Source: Acidobacteriota bacterium (GTDB lineage: Bacteria; Acidobacteriota; Polarisedimenticolia; J045). Taken from it: 40,351 nucleotides of DNA. Shown here one piece after another: positions 17,119-39,410 of this stretch. Both the position numbers and the translations under genes were made by a program. The notes beneath the pieces were generated by a model. It made no database searches, was not told the DNA's origin, and saw only the letters and a list, made by a program, of their open reading frames with translations. The stretch spans positions 1 through 40,351 of the forward strand of contig RFHH01000053.1 of NCBI GenBank assembly GCA_003696075.1, read 5' to 3'. Position 1 is the stretch's first letter; the number at the start of each line of letters is the position of its first letter.

Positions 17119-18564
17119 TCAGCTTCCGGTCGGCTGCAGGCCGTACTTGCGCAGCTTGCGGTAGAGCGTCGTCCGGCCGATCGCGAGGCGGCGCGCCGTG
17201 AGGCTCAGGTTGCCGCGGCACAGCTCGAGGCAGCGGACGATGTGACGGCGTTCCATCTCCTCGAGGGTCGGGATGCGGTCCCCGCCCGGCATGCCGGACG
17301 ACGAGGCCGCTCCCACCGGAACGCCGCGCCGGATCGCCGCCGACGGCGCGAGGCGGTCGCCACCGGCCGCTTGGACACGAGGCGGAAGATGCTCGGGAGC
17401 GATCGCAGCGGTGCCGGCAAGGACGATCGCGCGCCGGATCACGTTCTGCAGCTCCCGCACGTTTCCCGGCCAGTCGTACGCCTCGAGCATCTCCATCGCG
17501 GCCGGCGTGATGCCCCTCGGGCGCGGCTCCGCCGCCGAGAGCAGGATGTGCTCGGCCAGCAACGGAACGTCTTCCCGTCGCTGGCGCAGCGGGGGGATGG
17601 TGATCGGGTAGACGGCGACGCGATAGAAGAGGTCGGCGCGGAACCGCCCCTCTTGGACCTCTCGCTCGAGGTCGCGATTGGTGGCACAGATGATCCGCAC
17701 GTCGACCGGTCGCGGCGAGGACGAGCCCAGCCGGACGACCGCGCGGTCCTGGATGGCGCGCAGCAGCTTCGCCTGCAGTGCGGGGCTCATCTCGCCGATC
17801 TCGTCGAGGAACAGCGTTCCCCCATCCGCCGCCTCGAACCGGCCCGCGCGGTCCCGGTCGGCGCCGGTGAAAGCGCCCTTGACGTGACCGAAAAGCTCGC
17901 TCTCGAGAAGTGCGTCGGGCAGCGCCGCGCAGTTGACGGCGACGAAGGGAGCGTCCCGGCGCGGGCCTTCCCGGTGGATCGCGCGGGCGACCAGCTCTTT
18001 CCCCGTACCCGACTCCCCCTGGATCAGGACGGTGAGGTCCGTCGGGATCACCTTCTCGAGGAGCCGGGCGACTTCCCGAAGCCCGGAACGGATGCCGACG
18101 ATGTCGTCGAGGGAGGTCCGCGGACCGAGCGCCTGCCGGAGCAGTTCGACCTCGCGGGAGAGATCGTGCAGCTCCAGAGCGTTCCGCACGGCAATGGACA
18201 GGCGTTCCGTCTCGAAAGGCTTGGTGAGCAGGTCGCGGGCCCCCGCCTTCATCGCCTCCACGGCGCTGGCGATCGACGCTTGCCCGGTCAACACGATCAC
18301 CGGCACGTCCGGCCGCGTGGCCTGCATCTTCCGGAGGACCTCGAGACCGTTGATGTCCGGAAGCCGAAGGTCGAGCAGAACGAGGGAGGGCGACCGCCGC
18401 TCGAAGGCGACCAACGCCTCGCGGCCGGTGCCCGCCAGGACGGTCCGGTAACCGGCGCGGCCGAGGAGCGTCTCGAGCCAGCGGCGCACGCCTGGCTCGT
18501 CGTCGACCACGAGGATCAGCGGTTCCCCGGGCTGGTCCGCGGCGTTTGGCGATCGGTTCGGCAT
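17119..18564 (-). CDS. NtrC-family sigma-54-dependent response regulator
   Basis: 481 aa with the three NtrC parts. The receiver (about 16-130) is intact: acidic pair D21/D22, phosphoacceptor D65 (LLDLRLPD), T in VLTGQ and K115 in TKPF. The AAA+ domain has Walker A GESGTGKE (183-190), the sigma-54-contact loop GAFTGA (230-235), Walker B LFLDEIGE (251-258) and the WPGNVREL sensor-II motif. The Fis-type helix-turn-helix ends the protein ([22 protein letters not shown]). It activates sigma-54 promoters after phosphorylation by a histidine kinase. No kinase gene is adjacent; instead a PAS-only gene lies divergently behind a consensus sigma-54 promoter. ATG 18564 has AGGAG 7 nt upstream. Confidence 0.95.
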
Positions 18565-18631
18565 GCTCCCGCTCCTCATTTCCGGCGCTCGCGAGGGCAA
18601 ATATGGTGACCGGCGGACAGGTGTGCCATCC

Positions 18632-18672
18632 CGGGACGGTGCCCCGTCCCGAACCGGTGCGCCCGCACCGGT
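18632..18672. promoter_or_regulatory. Tandem palindromes, candidate enhancer sites for the NtrC-type activator
   Basis: Two perfect inverted repeats lie side by side: CGGGACGG-TGCC-CCGTCCCG (18632-18651) and ACCGGTGCG-CC-CGCACCGGT (18653-18672). They lie about 100-140 nt upstream of the predicted start of the sigma-54 promoter, the distance at which NtrC-type activators bind. They could instead form hairpins in a transcript; the assignment is inference. Confidence 0.5.
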
Positions 18673-18744
18673 GGCGGCCCTCCGGTGGACGCGTTTTTGC
18701 GTTCGAAATTGTTCGTTACATTCCGAAATCATCCGAGTCACCCC

Positions 18745-18761
18745 ATGGCACGGACGTTGCT
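18745..18761 (+). promoter_or_regulatory. Sigma-54 (-24/-12) promoter of the PAS-protein gene
   Basis: TGGCACGGACGTTGCT matches the consensus TGGCACG-N4-TTGCW at every defined position, with GG and GC 10 nt apart. Predicted +1 is near 18772. The leader to ATG 18867 is about 95 nt. Confidence 0.8.
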
Positions 18762-18866
18762 TCAGCTCGGGCGAAGCCGCCGTCCGGCCGCCCGCGTGTC
18801 AGCCCCAACATGCGGAGCGGTCGGGCGGCGGAGCAGCATCGGCTGACTGGGGCGGAACCGGGCGGG

Positions 18867-19661
18867 ATGCGAACCTTCCCCTTCCTTTCGACGGGACGCG
18901 ACGCGGAACGGGCCGCCCGGGAGGGGGAGGAGCTTCTTCCCGGGGTGCTTCTCGCCGAGCTGCCCGACCCGGTGGCCGCCGCCGACTCCGCAGCGCGGCT
19001 GCTGTGGGCCAACCCGGCCTTCGCCGCCTTCTTCGGCCGTGAGATCGATCCGGAGGCGCCGCCCGCGGTGGGCCAGCTCGCCGGCCCCTATGCCGACTCG
19101 ATGGAGGGGCTGCGGCTGACCGATCTCGTCCGGTGCGGCGAGGGCCGCACCGAGGTGACGCTGTTCGACGCCCAGGGTCTCTCGCACTGCTGCGAGGTGC
19201 GCGTCCGGGTGCTCGAGCCTCCCTGCGGCGCGGCCACACGGCTCCTCGTGGTCCGCGATCTGGAGCCTTTCCAAAAACGCAGCACGGAGCTCCTCGTGCG
19301 GGCGGAGGAGAGCCGAAGGGAACGCGCGATGCTGGAAGCGATGGCGAGGGTGCTCGACGTGGGCGTGGTCGCCGTCGACGACGCCGAGCGCGTGCTGATC
19401 GTCAACGAGCGGGCGCGCGAGGAGTTCGATCTCGACGGCCTTCGCGTCGAGGGGCAGGTTCTCGCCGATGTCCCGCTCCCGCTCGCCGTCCGCGGGGCGT
19501 GGCTCACCTTCATCGCCACCGGCGCGCCGCGCGAAGAGCGAAGGGTGCGCCTCCGCCGCGGCACGGAGACGCGCGACCTCACGGTCAAGTTCGTGCGCGT
19601 CCGGGGCCCGCACGACCGCCCGCTGGGAAGCGTCCTCGTCCTCGACCCGGCGGCGCGCTGA
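18867..19661 (+). CDS. Tandem PAS-domain protein without output domain
   Basis: 264 aa. Two PAS-like sensor domains: the first about residues 30-135 (ELPDPVAAADSAARLLWANPAFAAFF), the second about 155-260 (ARVLDVGVVAVDDAERVLIVNERAREEFDLDG). A short charged helix joins them (RSTELLVRAEESRRERAMLEAMA), probably coiled coil. No HisKA, HATPase, GGDEF, HTH or transmembrane segment is visible, so it is a soluble ligand- or redox-sensing module that must work through a partner. It is driven by a sigma-54 promoter and diverges from an NtrC-type activator, making it a candidate target and modulator of that regulator. Start ATG 18867 is the best guess; Shine-Dalgarno is poor, and ATG 18810 is an alternative. 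Confidence 0.75.
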   Translation: MRTFPFLSTGRDAERAAREGEELLPGVLLAELPDPVAAADSAARLLWANPAFAAFFGREIDPEAPPAVGQLAGPYADSMEGLRLTDLVRCGEGRTEVTLFDAQGLSHCCEVRVRVLEPPCGAATRLLVVRDLEPFQKRSTELLVRAEESRRERAMLEAMARVLDVGVVAVDDAERVLIVNERAREEFDLDGLRVEGQVLADVPLPLAVRGAWLTFIATGAPREERRVRLRRGTETRDLTVKFVRVRGPHDRPLGSVLVLDPAAR

Positions 19662-19706: not shown

Positions 19707-21374
19707 ATGGACGAGCGAGACCGGATAGCGAGCGAGAAGGCCCGCTGGGAACGCGAGCGGGTGGCGCCCGCCGTCTCCAAGGTCCCGGAGCGGCGGGAGC
19801 GTTTCGAGACCTCCTCTGGAATCCCCGTCGAGCGGCTCTACACCCCCGCCGACAGACCGGCGGGGGGCTACGCGGAGCGGCTCGGGTTCCCCGGAGAGCC
19901 GCCGTTCACCCGCGGCGTCCAGCCGACGATGTACCGGAGCCGTTTCTGGACGATGCGCCAGTATGCGGGGTTCGGGACGGCCGAGGAGTCCAACGCACGC
20001 TACCGCTATCTCCTCGAGCGCGGCCAATCGGGCCTCTCGGTGGCGTTCGACCTGCCGACACAGATGGGGCTCGACTCCGACAGCCCTTTGGCGCGGGGCG
20101 AGGTGGGCAAGGTCGGCGTCGCGATCGATAGTCTCGAGGACATGGAGGTGCTCCTGCGCGGCATACCCCTCGACCGCGTCAGCACCTCGATGACGATCAA
20201 TGCCACCGCCTCGATCCTGCTGGCGATGTACGTCGCGGTGGCGCGAAGACAGGGCGTTCCCCTGGACAAGCTGCGCGGGACCGTCCAGAACGACATCCTG
20301 AAGGAGTACATCGCCAGGGGAACGTATATCTTCCCTCCCCGCCCTTCGCTGCGTCTCGTGACCGACATCTTCGCCTGGTGTGCCGAGAACGTTCCGCAGT
20401 GGAACACGATCTCGATCTCCGGCTATCACATCCGCGAGGCCGGAGCCACGGCGGTGCAGGAAGTCGCGTTCACGCTCGCCAATGCGACGGCCTACGTCGG
20501 TGCGGCCCTGGAGGCGGGGTTGCCGCTGCAGCGGTTCGCCCCGCGGCTTTCCTTCTTCTTCAACGCCCAGATCGAGATCTTCGAGGAAGTGGCGAAGTTC
20601 CGCGCCGCCCGCCGCCTGTGGGCGAAGATCATGCGCGAGCGGTTCGGCGCCACCGACCCCGCCTGCTGCCGCCTGCGCTTCCACGCTCAGACGGCCGGAG
20701 CCTCGCTGACGGCGCAGCAGCCGGAGAACAACGTCGTTCGGACCGCCTACGAGGCACTCGCGGCGGTGCTCGGAGGGTGCCAGTCCCTTCACACCAACGC
20801 GCTCGACGAGGCGCTCGGTCTGCCGACCGAGCGCACGGCACTGCTGGCGCTCCGCACGCAGCAGGTTCTCGCGCACGAGACGGGGGTGGCGGATACGGTC
20901 GATCCCCTCGCCGGCTCCTACTTCGTGGAGAGCCTCACCGACGAGATCGAACGCCGCGCCTCCGAGCTGCTCGCGCGGATCGACGAGCTCGGCGGCGCCG
21001 TGGCCGCGATCGAGCGCGGCTTTCCGCAGCGGGAAATCGCGGACGCCGCGTACCGGCTGCAGCGCGCCATCGAGTCGGGAGACAGAGTGGTGGTCGGGGT
21101 CAATCGCTTCCGGGAGGGGGCGGAGCCCGACGTTCCGGTGCTGAAGGTACCGGAAGAGCTCGAGCAGCGGCAATGCGCACGCCTTGCCGAGGTGCGCCGG
21201 CGCCGCGATCCGGTGCGCTGGAGGCGCGCCATCGACGCGGTCCGCGACGCCGCCGCCGGCCACGGCAACCTGATGGAGCCGATCCTCGAGGCGGTCGAGG
21301 CGCACGCGACCGTGGGCGAGATCAGCACGGCGCTCGCCGACGTCTTCGGCCGCTACGACGGGCCGGCGTTCTGA
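19707..21374 (+). CDS. Methylmalonyl-CoA mutase, large (catalytic) subunit
   Basis: 555 aa, the barrel domain of an adenosylcobalamin acyl-CoA mutase (methylmalonyl-CoA to succinyl-CoA). Family blocks run in order: [126 protein letters not shown] and [16 protein letters not shown]. The Tyr in RQYAGF favours methylmalonyl-CoA over isobutyryl-CoA mutase, where Phe is usual. There is no B12-binding DxHxxG domain, so the cobalamin subunit must be a separate protein; none is in the window. The absence of that small subunit next door is a little unusual. Confidence 0.92.
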
Positions 21375-26421: not shown

Positions 26422-27139
26422 CGCGTCCCTCCGGCTCGCGCGTGAAGCGGTATCCGACGCCGCGCACCGTGTGGAAATGGACCGGGTTTTCGGGATCCCG
26501 TTCGAACCGTTTCCGGAGCCGGACGATGAAGTTGTCGATCGTCCGCGTGGAGGGGAACAGGTCGTATCCCCAGACCTTCTCGAGGATTTCCTCGCGGGAG
26601 ACGACCTCGCCCTCCTTTTCGGCGAGAGCCTTGAGGATCATCGCCTCCTTTTGGGTCAGCGTCTGCTCGCGGCCGTCCCACGAGCGCCCCTTGAAAGAAC
26701 GGAAATCGAAGGTGTTGCCGCCGAAAGCGAGCGTCGCCCCGCTGCTGGGCATGGCCTCGTACCAGCTCCGGCGCCGGATGATGGCCCTCACCCGCAGCAG
26801 CAGCTCCTTCAGATGGAACGGTTTCGGGAGATAGTCGTCGCCGCCCGCCTCGAGCCCGCGGATGCGGTCGTCGACGCTTCCCTTGGCGGTCAGGAACAGG
26901 ATCGGGCAGTCCCTCTCCGCGGCGCGGGCGCGCTCGCAGATGGTGAATCCATCGATCCCCGGGAGCATGACGTCGAGCAGGACGAGATCCCACGGCTCGG
27001 AGAGGATCCGCTGCAGTCCCTCGCGCCCGTCGTGGGCGACCTCCGCCGCGTAGCCCTCCGCGGCCAGGTTCTCGCGGATTCCCTCCGCGAGGTGGACCTC
27101 GTCTTCGATCACCAGGATCCGTGCCGTCGGCCGGCTCAC
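26411..27139 (-). CDS. OmpR/PhoB-family response regulator within the haem operon
   Basis: 242 aa. Receiver domain with IEDE acidic residues, phosphoacceptor D56 (LLDVMLPGIDG), FLTAKG and KPFH. The winged-helix DNA-binding domain has LTQKEAMILKALAEKEGEVVSREEILEKVWGY and RTIDNFIVRLRKRFE, ending GVGYRFTRE. GTG 27139 overlaps the kinase stop by 4 nt. It is encoded between hemL and hemE, so its most natural target is haem synthesis itself or a haem-linked respiratory function. OmpR-family regulators bind direct repeats with 11-bp period, and such a repeat exists upstream of hemA. Confidence 0.95.
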   Translation of the reverse strand: MSRPTARILVIEDEVHLAEGIRENLAAEGYAAEVAHDGREGLQRILSEPWDLVLLDVMLPGIDGFTICERARAAERDCPILFLTAKGSVDDRIRGLEAGGDDYLPKPFHLKELLLRVRAIIRRRSWYEAMPSSGATLAFGGNTFDFRSFKGRSWDGREQTLTQKEAMILKALAEKEGEVVSREEILEKVWGYDLFPSTRTIDNFIVRLRKRFERDPENPVHFHTVRGVGYRFTREPEGRDDE

Positions 27140-28236
27140 GATTCCCTCCCCGGCGGCAGTGGCCAGCGGACCGTGAAGGACGCCCCCTTCCCGGGACCGG
27201 CGCTGCGGGCCTGGATCGTTCCGCCGCCGATCTCGATGAAGCGCCGAACGAGGTACAGGCCGAGCCCCGAGCCGCGCGTGTGCCGCCTCAGCTCGTCGCC
27301 CGGCCGGTAGAACTTGTCGAAGATCCGCCCCAGCTCGTCCGCGGGTATGCCGATCCCGGTGTCGGCGACCTCGAGCTCCGCCGCGCCGGAGCGGGCGGTC
27401 GCGCGAAGCCGGACCCTCCCGCCGCCGGCTGCGGCGGTCGCCTTGACCGCGTTGTCGGTGAGATTCCGAACGACGGTCCGGGCCGCCGCCGGGTCGACCC
27501 ACGCCTCGACGTCCGCTTCGATTTCGCTCACCAGCTCCACTCCCTGGGCCGCGGCGGTCCGCGCCAGCTCGTCCAGCACGGCCTCCGCCGTGCGCCGCAA
27601 CGAAACCCGCTGCGGCTCGTACGGGATCCGGCCTTCCTCGATCCGCGTCGTGTCGAGGACGTTCGTCACCATCGTCTCCAGCCGCTGGAGTTCGTCCAAC
27701 ATGCGCTCCACGATCGCCCGGCGCTGCTCGGCGGGCGGATCGCGCATCGCGAGGGTCTCGGCCGAGAGCCGGAGGCTCGCGATCGGGCTCTTCAGCTCGT
27801 GCGAGACGGCGGCGAGAAAGTTCTCCTGCCGCCGCTTCAAGCGGAACTCCTCGCGCAGGGCGCGGCCGAGGACGCTCATTCCGGCGAAGAGCACGAGCAG
27901 GAAGAATCCCGCCTCCCACCCGTAGCGGTTCAGCCGGCGCCAGCGGTCGCGCCGGAGCCGCTCGCGGAGCGCCCGCGAGATCCGCGCCCGGGGAGCGGAC
28001 CGCTCCACGTCCAGGTTCGGAAACAACTCGGCCACCTGGTCCGCGGGGTAGCCGAGCTGGAGCATGACGTGCGCCGCCTGTGCCTGCTGGGAGAGAAGCT
28101 GCTCGTCGAATTCGGCGACGCGGCGGGTGTAGCGCGCCTCGTCCAGTACCCACCAGAGCACCTGGGCGCAGCAGACGACCAGCAACGCCAGGAATCCCAC
28201 CTGGAGAATCCGCACGTTGCGCCGCCGCGCCCGCAT
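27136..28236 (-). CDS. Membrane sensor histidine kinase within the haem operon
   Basis: 366 aa. Two transmembrane helices (residues about 10-31 and 107-124) flank a small extracytoplasmic sensor of about 75 residues (helical, with VAEFDEQLLSQQAQAAHVML). The cytoplasmic kinase has the H-box FLAAVSHELKSPIASLRLS (H146), the N-box VVRNLTDNAVKAT, the G1 box DTGIGIP, an F-box (FDKFYRP) and the G2 box GSGLGLYLV. No HAMP is obvious. The sensor is unlike anything I recognise; the signal could be oxygen, redox or haem-related, which is context inference. ATG 28236 follows GGGAGG by 4 nt and lies 10 nt after hemL. The gene overlaps the response regulator by 4 nt. Confidence 0.95.
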   Translation of the reverse strand: MRARRRNVRILQVGFLALLVVCCAQVLWWVLDEARYTRRVAEFDEQLLSQQAQAAHVMLQLGYPADQVAELFPNLDVERSAPRARISRALRERLRRDRWRRLNRYGWEAGFFLLVLFAGMSVLGRALREEFRLKRRQENFLAAVSHELKSPIASLRLSAETLAMRDPPAEQRRAIVERMLDELQRLETMVTNVLDTTRIEEGRIPYEPQRVSLRRTAEAVLDELARTAAAQGVELVSEIEADVEAWVDPAAARTVVRNLTDNAVKATAAAGGGRVRLRATARSGAAELEVADTGIGIPADELGRIFDKFYRPGDELRRHTRGSGLGLYLVRRFIEIGGGTIQARSAGPGKGASFTVRWPLPPGRES

Positions 28237-28246
28237 GCCGCCTCCC

Positions 28247-29548
28247 TCAGCCGGCGCTCGCCGCGGCGGCCAGCGCCCCGGGAAGGGCACCGGCCAACTT
28301 CTCCAGGTGGTGCCGATCGTGGGCGAGCGACAGGAAACCGACCTCGTAGGCGGAAGGGGCGAGCTGGATGCCTTGCTCCAGGAGGGCGTGGAAGAGGGCC
28401 CGGTAGCGGGCGGCCGCCTCGGGGGCGATCGCCTCGGCCGATCGCGGCGGATCCCCCTCCTGCAAACAAAGCCAGAAGATCGAGCCCACCCGCACGAGCC
28501 GGGCGGGCACCGGCGCGGCGGCGAGCACGGGCGCCAGCGCTTCGTCGAGAAGCCGTCCGAGTTCCTCCAGGCGCTCCCAGCCGCGCTCGCGCTCGAGAAC
28601 CCGGAGTGTGGCCAGTCCCGCCGCCATCGCCACCGGATTTCCCGACAACGTGCCCGCTTGGTAGACGTCCCCCTCGGGCGCCAGGCGCGCCATGATCTCC
28701 CGGCGGCCGCCGAAGGCGCCCACCGGAAGGCCGCCGCCGATCACCTTGCCGAACGTGGCGAGGTCGGGGGTCACGCCCGTGCGCTCGGCCGCGCCACCCG
28801 GTCCGACGCGGAAGCCGCTGATGACCTCGTCGAAGATGAGCAGGGCTCCCGCCCGCTCCGTCTCCTCGCGCAACGCGCGGAGAAAGTCGGCGCGCTGCAC
28901 CAGAAGGCCGTTGTTCGCCGGAATCGGCTCGACGATGACGGCTGCCACGTGCTCCCCCTCATCGCGCATCAGCGCGCGGAACCGCTCCTCGTCGTCGAGC
29001 GGGAGCACGCGGGTGAGGCGGGCGAAGGGCTCGGGGACACCGGCGGAGGATGGCGTGCCGAACGTGGCGAGGCCCGAGCCGGCGGAGACGAGCAGGTGGT
29101 CGGCGTGCCCGTGGTAGCAGCCGGAGAATTTCACCACCGGGTCCCGGCCGGTGAAGCCGCGCGCGAGGCGGATGGCGCTCATGGTGGCCTCGGTCCCGGA
29201 GGAGACGAAGCGCACCTGCTCGAGGCCCGGGTAGAGCCGCACGACGGTCTCCGCCAGCTCCACCTCGGCGCGGCACGGGGCGCCGAACGTCGTTCCCTCG
29301 CCGGCCGCGCGGCGCACCGCGTCGACCACCTCGGGATGGGCGTGGCCGAGGATCAGTGGTCCCCACGAGCCGACGAAATCGACGAAACGCCGCCCGTCCT
29401 CGTCCTCGACCTCCGCCCCCGCGCCCCGCCTGATGAAGGGGGGGATACCGCCGACGGCCCGGAAGGCCCGGACCGGTGAGTCGACACCGCCCGGTATCAC
29501 CCGCCGGGCGCGGTCGAACAGGTTACGGCTGTTCGGTCCGGCACTCAC
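28247..29548 (-). CDS. hemL: Glutamate-1-semialdehyde 2,1-aminomutase
   Basis: 433 aa. A PLP enzyme making 5-aminolevulinate from glutamate-1-semialdehyde (second C5-pathway step). PLP Lys is K268 in TFGKVIGGGLPVGAFGG. IPGGVDSPVRAF opens the protein; SSGTEATMSAIRLAR and the AGTLSGNPVAMAAGL motif are intact. The GTG start overlaps the hemB stop by 4 nt. Length matches the family (about 430). Confidence 0.97.
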   Translation of the reverse strand: MSAGPNSRNLFDRARRVIPGGVDSPVRAFRAVGGIPPFIRRGAGAEVEDEDGRRFVDFVGSWGPLILGHAHPEVVDAVRRAAGEGTTFGAPCRAEVELAETVVRLYPGLEQVRFVSSGTEATMSAIRLARGFTGRDPVVKFSGCYHGHADHLLVSAGSGLATFGTPSSAGVPEPFARLTRVLPLDDEERFRALMRDEGEHVAAVIVEPIPANNGLLVQRADFLRALREETERAGALLIFDEVISGFRVGPGGAAERTGVTPDLATFGKVIGGGLPVGAFGGRREIMARLAPEGDVYQAGTLSGNPVAMAAGLATLRVLERERGWERLEELGRLLDEALAPVLAAAPVPARLVRVGSIFWLCLQEGDPPRSAEAIAPEAAARYRALFHALLEQGIQLAPSAYEVGFLSLAHDRHHLEKLAGALPGALAAAASAG

Positions 29549-35447: not shown

Positions 35448-36908
<1,461 letters not shown>

Positions 36909-36917
36909 GTCACCCGA

Positions 36918-36946
36918 AGAATAGGGCCGAATTGACCCAGAAACAA
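36918..36946 (-). promoter_or_regulatory. Sigma-70-type promoter of the activator gene
   Basis: TTGTTT (36941-36946) and TATTCT (36918-36923) with a 17-nt spacer on the minus strand; start expected near 36911, three nt before the GTG. Confidence 0.55.
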
Positions 36947-37025
36947 GAAAAAGGGGTGTAATTGGCCTATTTTCTGCTGCGGCCGGGCCCTGCCCAGGGC
37001 GGCCTCTGTTTGTAACTCGTTGCAA

Positions 37026-37062: not shown

Positions 37063-37079
37063 CTGGCAAGAGGATTGCT
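37063..37079 (+). promoter_or_regulatory. Sigma-54 promoter of the 69-aa gene
   Basis: CTGGCAAGAGGATTGCT matches YTGGCACGRNNNTTGCW with one mismatch (A for C). GG and GC are 10 nt apart. Expected start is near 37090, giving a leader of about 37 nt to ATG 37127 that includes GGAG. Confidence 0.75.
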
Positions 37080-38081: not shown

Positions 38082-39410
38082 TCAGAACGTCTGGAGGTAA
38101 CGCTCGACCTCCCAGGGATGCACGATCGTGATGTACTCCTGCCACTCGCGAAGCTTCCCCTCGATGAAGTGGGTGGCGATGTGCTCCCCGAGGGCGTCGA
38201 GGATCACCTTGTCCTTCTGGAGGGCCCGGACGGCCGCGTAGAGATCGGGTGGCAGGTTGTCGATCTTGAGCCGCTTCTTCTCCCGGTCGCTCATCCGGAA
38301 GATGTCCTTGTTGACCGGCGGACCGGGATCGAGGTTCCGCTCGATGCCGTCGAGGCCCGCCCGCAGCATGACGCCGAAGGCGAGGTACGGATTGCACGAG
38401 GGATCCGGCATCCGCACCTCGACGCGGGTCGCGACACCGCGCCGCGCGGGCACGCGGGCCAGCGGGCTTCGGTTCCGCTCCGACCAGGCGATGTTGGTGG
38501 GCGCCTCGTAGCCGGGCACGAGGCGCTTGAAGGAGTTGACCGTCGGATTGGTCACGGCGCAAATGGCCTTGGCGTGGTCGAGGATGCCCCCGATGTACGA
38601 CAAGGCGATCCGGGAGAGACCGTACTCGCCCTCCGGATCGTCGAAGGCGTTCCGCCCCTCCCGGTCGAACAGCGACTGGTGGACGTGCATCCCCGACCCG
38701 TTCTCGCCGAAGAGAGGTTTCGGCATGAACGTGGCGTGGAGGCCGAACTTCAGGGCGACCTTGCGCACGACGTGCCGGAAGACCAACAGGTTGTCGGCGG
38801 TCGTGAGGGCGTCGGCGTACTTGAAGTCGATCTCGTGCTGGCCGGGGGCGACCTCGTGGTGCGCGGCCTCGACCTCGAAGCCCATCTGCTCCAGGATGTT
38901 GACGATCTCGCGCCGGGCATCCTCGCCGGCGTCCACCGGGGCCAGATCGAAGTAGGCGCCGCGGTCGTGGGTGCGCGTGGTCGCGGTCCCCTCGGCGGTG
39001 CGATGGAAGAGGAAGAACTCGGCCTCCGGTCCCATCATCGACTCGAACCCCATCGCCCGCGCCCGCTCCAATGTCCGCCGGAGCGCGTACCGGGGATCCC
39101 CGGCAAAGGGGCTGCCGTCAGGATTCGCCACATCGCAGATCAGCATCGCCACGCGGTCGGTTCCCTCCTGCGGGAACACCCGGAGCGAGTCGAGATCGGG
39201 CTTCAGGAGCATGTCCGACTCCTGGATGCGGACGAAGCCCTCGATCGACGAGCCATCGAAGAGGATCTCGCCGGCCAGCGCCTTGTCGAACTGGCTGTCC
39301 GGCACCTCGACGTTCTTGATCACGCCGTGGATATCGGAGAAGACGAGCCGCAGAAAGCGGACCTTCTCCTCCGCCAGGATGTCGCGCACCTCTTTCTCGG
39401 TTCTCGGCAT
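38082..39410 (-). CDS. glnA: Glutamine synthetase, type I (GSI-alpha)
   Basis: 442 aa. Makes glutamine from glutamate, ammonia and ATP. N-terminal beta-grasp contains FSDIHGVIKNVEVP; DGSSIEGF, MGPEAEFFLF, VAPGQHEIDFKY, MPKPLFGENGSGMHVHQSL and NPTVNSFKRLVPGYEAP carry the metal and substrate sites. Length and the lack of the NLYDLP adenylylation Tyr motif place it with GSI-alpha (Bacillus/archaeal type), not the adenylylated GSI-beta (about 468 aa). Control is therefore probably by feedback or transcription. ATG 39410 has GGAGG 5 nt upstream. Confidence 0.97.
   Translation of the reverse strand: MPRTEKEVRDILAEEKVRFLRLVFSDIHGVIKNVEVPDSQFDKALAGEILFDGSSIEGFVRIQESDMLLKPDLDSLRVFPQEGTDRVAMLICDVANPDGSPFAGDPRYALRRTLERARAMGFESMMGPEAEFFLFHRTAEGTATTRTHDRGAYFDLAPVDAGEDARREIVNILEQMGFEVEAAHHEVAPGQHEIDFKYADALTTADNLLVFRHVVRKVALKFGLHATFMPKPLFGENGSGMHVHQSLFDREGRNAFDDPEGEYGLSRIALSYIGGILDHAKAICAVTNPTVNSFKRLVPGYEAPTNIAWSERNRSPLARVPARRGVATRVEVRMPDPSCNPYLAFGVMLRAGLDGIERNLDPGPPVNKDIFRMSDREKKRLKIDNLPPDLYAAVRALQKDKVILDALGEHIATHFIEGKLREWQEYITIVHPWEVERYLQTF

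Follow-up and report, generated by a model that had tools for sequence, protein, structure and literature searches.

The window analysed here, a 40-kb stretch of DNA that makes up a whole contig of a 3.29-Mb, 98.6% complete genome (G000), carries a divergent gene pair: an NtrC-type response regulator and, transcribed away from it, a gene for a protein with two PAS domains, separated by a predicted sigma-54 promoter and candidate activator sites (UAS; Table 1). A methylmalonyl-CoA mutase gene follows the PAS gene on the same strand. The locus was compared with those of other members of the same family (G001 to G011; G-numbers denote genomes throughout), and the basis throughout is draft genomes, several of them fragmented. 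G000 encodes one rpoN gene.

Table 1. Features of the PAS/NtrC locus and its surroundings (window positions).
Feature	Position	Strand	Remarks
NtrC-type response regulator: receiver, sigma-54 AAA+ with GAFTGA, Fis-type HTH	17119..18564	-	
AATATG block, possible -10 of the regulator's own promoter	18600..18605	-	CATATT on the - strand
UAS1, 17-bp dyad TGTGCCA-TCC-CGGGACG, candidate NtrC binding site	18622..18638	.	10/10 loci
UAS2, weaker dyad	18645..18661	.	23 bp beyond UAS1; second dyad at 22-25 bp in relatives
Predicted sigma-54 promoter ATGGCACGGACGTTGCT of the PAS gene	18745..18761	+	consensus match and conservation; predicted start about 18773
Strong 5' hairpin of the predicted PAS mRNA	18777..18831	+	z -3.2; spans alternative start codon 18810
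PAS-PAS protein, 264 aa, transmitter-less histidine kinase orthologue	18867..19661	+	likely start ATG 18867, alternative 18810
PAS_8 Pfam match within PAS domain 1	18954..19055	+	
PAS domain 2	19326..19643	+	Pfam; reading frame stops just past PAS2
Methylmalonyl-CoA mutase gene (PF01642)	19707..21374	+	45 bp downstream of the PAS gene; possibly co-transcribed
Nearest kinase, PhoR-like	27136-28290	-	adjoins a PhoB-like regulator

The receiver, sigma-54 AAA+ and Fis-type helix-turn-helix domains of the regulator all score above the Pfam gathering cut-offs, and the phospho-acceptor aspartate and the GAFTGA loop are both intact. By domains and key residues the protein fits an NtrC-type sigma-54 response regulator, in agreement with an earlier note on this DNA that had called it a full NtrC. 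Orthologues in nine family genomes are 56-63% identical to it; named genomes yielded general NtrC relatives alone (38-51% identity). Among curated models the regulator matches AtoC and NtrC best and the PAS protein AtoS, in each case below cut-off, and the match of the regulator to TIGR02915 (PEP_resp_reg; 419 bits, cut-off 502.6) is below cut-off too. Retention of the aspartate suggests that phosphorylation probably still matters in G000. The orthologue in G001 (L068, from 8974) reads LMLLV where the others have LVLLD or similar, a change of Asp to Val that leaves its receiver without the phospho-acceptor; the same genome also has a broken PAS gene.

No kinase gene adjoins the regulator, as the note had also stated. 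The PhoR-like kinase nearest to it was rejected as its partner, being paired with its own PhoB-like regulator. Elsewhere in the window a second NtrC-like regulator and a glutamine synthetase gene adjoin (35448-37025 and 38082-39410, both on the - strand), and a sigma-54-like site at 37064-37079 (+) lies between them, facing away from both.

The sequence TGGCACGGACGTTGCT at 18746-18761 (+) agrees with TGGCACG-N4-TTGCW without a mismatch, and the full consensus match claimed previously is therefore correct, its quoted start being off by one base. Taken alone the sequence proves little, because the exact pattern occurs twice in the G000 genome and a reversed control pattern is equally frequent (2 matches), and the match was rejected as stand-alone evidence. 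Conservation of the PAS/NtrC pair, which had been proposed as a check, is more informative: in each of the ten family genomes where NtrC is divergent, a -24/-12 element faces the orthologous gene in the orientation seen here, and promoter and two activator dyads are kept in 10/10 pair loci, spread over nine genera. This conservation confirms, at the level of comparative sequence analysis, that the predicted site is real. The combined UAS and sigma-54 pattern was found at two places in G000, the PAS promoter and a site on contig C116, and its reversed control at none. The 5' hairpin of the predicted PAS transcript is absent from the relatives and was rejected as a conserved riboregulator.

Both the position and the sequence of UAS1 are kept in 10/10 loci (leave-one-out profile score 11.9), and nearly all loci have the first dyad in the form YGTGCCA-N3-YGRRACR. 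The two 17-bp dyads are 22-25 bp apart and lie 129 and 106 bp upstream of the -12 element in G000; in the relatives these distances are mostly near 138 and 115 bp. UAS2 is weak in G000, with a profile score of -1.6. Closer to the regulator, the AATAT within the AATATG block is invariant in 10/10 loci; its reading as a -10 element was made by eye and is under the promoter-scan threshold.

By Pfam the PAS protein has two PAS regions and lacks an output domain, just as the earlier note had read it; HisKA with its phospho-acceptor histidine is absent by both Pfam and alignment, and HATPase_c is likewise absent. A PDB sequence search gave no significant match, and a single-sequence structure prediction reached a pLDDT of 41. 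Homologues were found in 11 of the 12 family genomes, and outside the family there are weak matches only, mostly to the second PAS region. The orthologues in G002, G003, G007 and G008 are complete cytosolic PAS-PAS-HisKA-HATPase kinases with the HisKA histidine present, encoded divergently from the orthologous NtrC, and that of G010 ends at a contig edge after an intact H-box. Alignment of the G000 protein to these kinases extends to the final strand of PAS2, where the protein ends. Judged by this alignment, the protein is what remains of the former kinase of NtrC itself: the sensor half, the transmitter having been cleanly lost. No transmitter remnant was found downstream of the reading frame, and the best transmitter matches elsewhere in G000 are 33-37% identical, no closer than ordinary paralogues; a split or relocated transmitter was accordingly rejected. 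In G001, from a sister genus and grouped with G000 as its sister by the NtrC tree (support 99/98), the gene stops at the equivalent point and again has the mutase as its neighbour, which makes an assembly artefact an unlikely cause of the truncation. The PAS1 region of the G001 copy contains frameshifts and stops.

Transmitters have eroded in other ways across the family: G005 keeps HisKA and has no HATPase; G009, which groups with the intact G002, has no HisKA; and G011 has no H-box, with no adjacent NtrC found on its short contig. In G004 the motif reads HQLRTP, as against HELRTP in its congener G010. The types of erosion differ among G000/G001, G005, G009 and G011, these groups are separate in the NtrC tree, and at least three independent erosions are needed to account for the pattern as reconstructed here. 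From the single-domain losses it follows that the kinase end has degenerated more than once, with sensor, promoter and regulator retained.

For the G004/G010 pair, omega is 0.12 for PAS, 0.29 for HisKA and 0.13 for NtrC. Four-fold sites between G000 and G001 are near saturation (identity 0.43 in NtrC and 0.47 in the mutase, against 0.38 and 0.40 expected); PAS2 is identical at 0.57 of first and 0.64 of second codon positions, where 0.34 and 0.26 are expected. These codon-position tests favour selection on PAS2 after transmitter loss: if, as we assume, the truncation preceded the G000/G001 split, selection would have acted on the truncated protein. G000 also keeps 22 invariant columns. Its PAS branch is twice the median length, its NtrC branch being ordinary, which indicates that constraint on the protein changed or loosened.

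The conserved promoter and dyads lend good support to a predicted loop in which NtrC acts through the sigma-54 promoter on expression of the sensor. This was the part of the earlier interpretation that stood. Its further proposal, that the PAS protein is an added soluble sensor feeding back on a kinase elsewhere, overlooks that the protein derives from NtrC's former kinase, and we found no positive evidence for it. We propose instead that the locus is a sigma-54-autoregulated NtrC/sensor pair that has lost its transmitter, and that the PAS-PAS protein modulates NtrC by contact, a reading to which we give a probability of about 0.5. According to this model, NtrC would bind the tandem dyads and activate the sigma-54 promoter, the output of which would be the PAS-PAS protein and perhaps the mutase too; because the start region of ntrC is nearby, NtrC bound to the dyads may in addition dampen its own transcription. 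The PAS-PAS protein would sense a cytosolic signal and modulate NtrC, closing a feedback loop. Having no transmitter it cannot pass phosphate and would most likely work by protein contact, and since NtrC retains its aspartate, it would be activated by a different kinase or by a small phosphodonor. Occupancy of the dyads by NtrC, direct PAS-NtrC contact and the sign of the feedback are all inferred; contact is suggested by the loss of the transmitter, the recurrence of such losses and the continued constraint on the sensor. With the kinase half gone and the control DNA coupling the two genes kept, regulation of the switch may no longer depend on the usual transfer of phosphate. Counting against the contact model are the fast PAS branch of G000, the broken G001 copy, the intact G000 aspartate and the weak UAS2.

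The main rival is that the PAS gene became functionless once the transmitter was lost, promoter and reading frame being fossils. The frameshifts and stops in G001 and the long G000 branch are what such decay would leave, and chance reading frames of great length are common at this G+C content. However, PAS2 shows codon-position constraint despite a saturated synonymous distance, the invariant columns are retained, UAS and promoter are intact, and the G001 lesions, seen on one contig of a 74% complete genome, could be sequencing errors; we consider decay somewhat unlikely. A modulator of some other kinase, acting through mixed dimers or competition and thereby setting NtrC phosphorylation, would fit the intact receiver and the conserved linker between the PAS domains, and such a kinase might be among the 38 HATPase matches of the genome. 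Against this, the sequence offers no candidate beyond the paralogues described above, and HisKA, the dimerising region of kinases, is missing from the PAS protein, which makes this explanation clearly unlikely.

It is also conceivable that the mutase is the real cargo of the promoter and the PAS stub a leader for read-through. No terminator was found in the 45-bp same-strand gap, the adjacency is shared with G001, and directly 3' of the mutase the + strand has no additional gene matched by Pfam. But in other relatives the promoter drives the sensor with no mutase found on the examined stretch, PAS2 is constrained as a sequence, and the mutase may have a promoter of its own; we regard this as very improbable. 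The contact model, then, remains our preferred reading of the G000 locus. Its extension to the family, namely that kinases were repeatedly and independently converted to phosphotransfer-free partners with promoter, UAS and PAS domains kept, one lineage becoming Asp-less, and with a regulon of small proteins, is offered tentatively, the odds being moderately against it.

The possible regulon comes from the C116 site, which precedes a gene for a 97-aa protein starting MSRKLKVEELESRIAPS (L224, from 1501; G000:C116:7977-8267), itself directly 3' of a PqqD-M50-HlyD exporter-like gene; some genes for its relatives likewise lie directly behind such a gene. The small-protein family (L224-L239) comprises proteins of 67-104 aa that begin M[SK]RKLKVxELExRIAPS and have no Pfam match. 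Relatives were found in 11/12 family genomes at a loose cut-off and in 9/12 at E <= 0.001, as against 0/29 other genomes of the class searched at E <= 0.001, so in this sample the small proteins appear to be known from G000's family alone. A strong sigma-54 promoter precedes 13 of the 16 genes. With a UAS profile built from the pair loci, the own genome being left out, a UAS-like dyad was found at 8/11 small-protein promoters in genomes with an orthologous NtrC (p 0.0006-0.027), and at 0/2 in genomes in which the search for an orthologous NtrC gave none (combined p 0.38). Fisher's combined p over all 11 promoters is 3e-10, a value that is indicative because the profile was made after inspection from the same loci and related genomes do not supply independent promoters. 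The best p at any other sigma-54-like site of G000, the C116 promoter excluded, is 0.03. There is thus statistical support for UAS sites marking the sigma-54 promoters of the small proteins, and NtrC may be the activator there, other activators with similar sites being possible. Further UAS and sigma-54 matches in the family (L197, L199, L202, L209) are single cases, inseparable from chance: L202 (G005:C73:16788-16918) precedes a FliN-then-FliO-like pair, recognised by eye, and may be a further target or chance, and a match in G002 precedes a secreted-looking protein.

NtrBC and AtoSC are two-component systems in which a PAS kinase is coupled to a sigma-54 response regulator. The system described here resembles them in regulator architecture and in the PAS-PAS-HisKA-HATPase partner of the family relatives, and differs in that the G000 partner has no HisKA or HATPase, the genes are divergent, the sensor is apparently sigma-54 driven and the UAS is specific to the family. 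NifL, a kinase-derived tandem-PAS protein beside the sigma-54 activator NifA, acts without phosphotransfer, contacting NifA through its H and GHKL domains; a PAS2-NifA contact is not known (PMC9866876). The G000 protein shares the tandem PAS domains by Pfam and is without H and GHKL domains, and NifA has a GAF domain where NtrC has a receiver; the analogy is functional only. The small-protein promoters of the family are reminiscent of PrsK/PrsR, whose NtrC-like regulator is associated with an upstream motif and -24/-12 promoters before many single-gene exported (PEP-CTERM) proteins (PMC1569441). However, PrsK is a kinase with transmembrane segments that usually stands in tandem with PrsR, and the family's proteins are short, have no Pfam match and accompany an NtrC below the PEP_resp_reg cut-off.

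In our literature searches no paper stood out on this kind of transmitter-domain loss, and we came across no description of the small-protein motif. If the proposed reading is true, the family would hold a graded natural series of complete kinases, half-lost transmitters and a PAS-only protein around one conserved regulator and promoter. By exchanging these variants in a single reporter, one could test directly how a kinase becomes a partner of a sigma-54 activator that no longer acts as an enzyme, and the orthologous NtrC would be a candidate for the activator of a small-protein family that has not been described.
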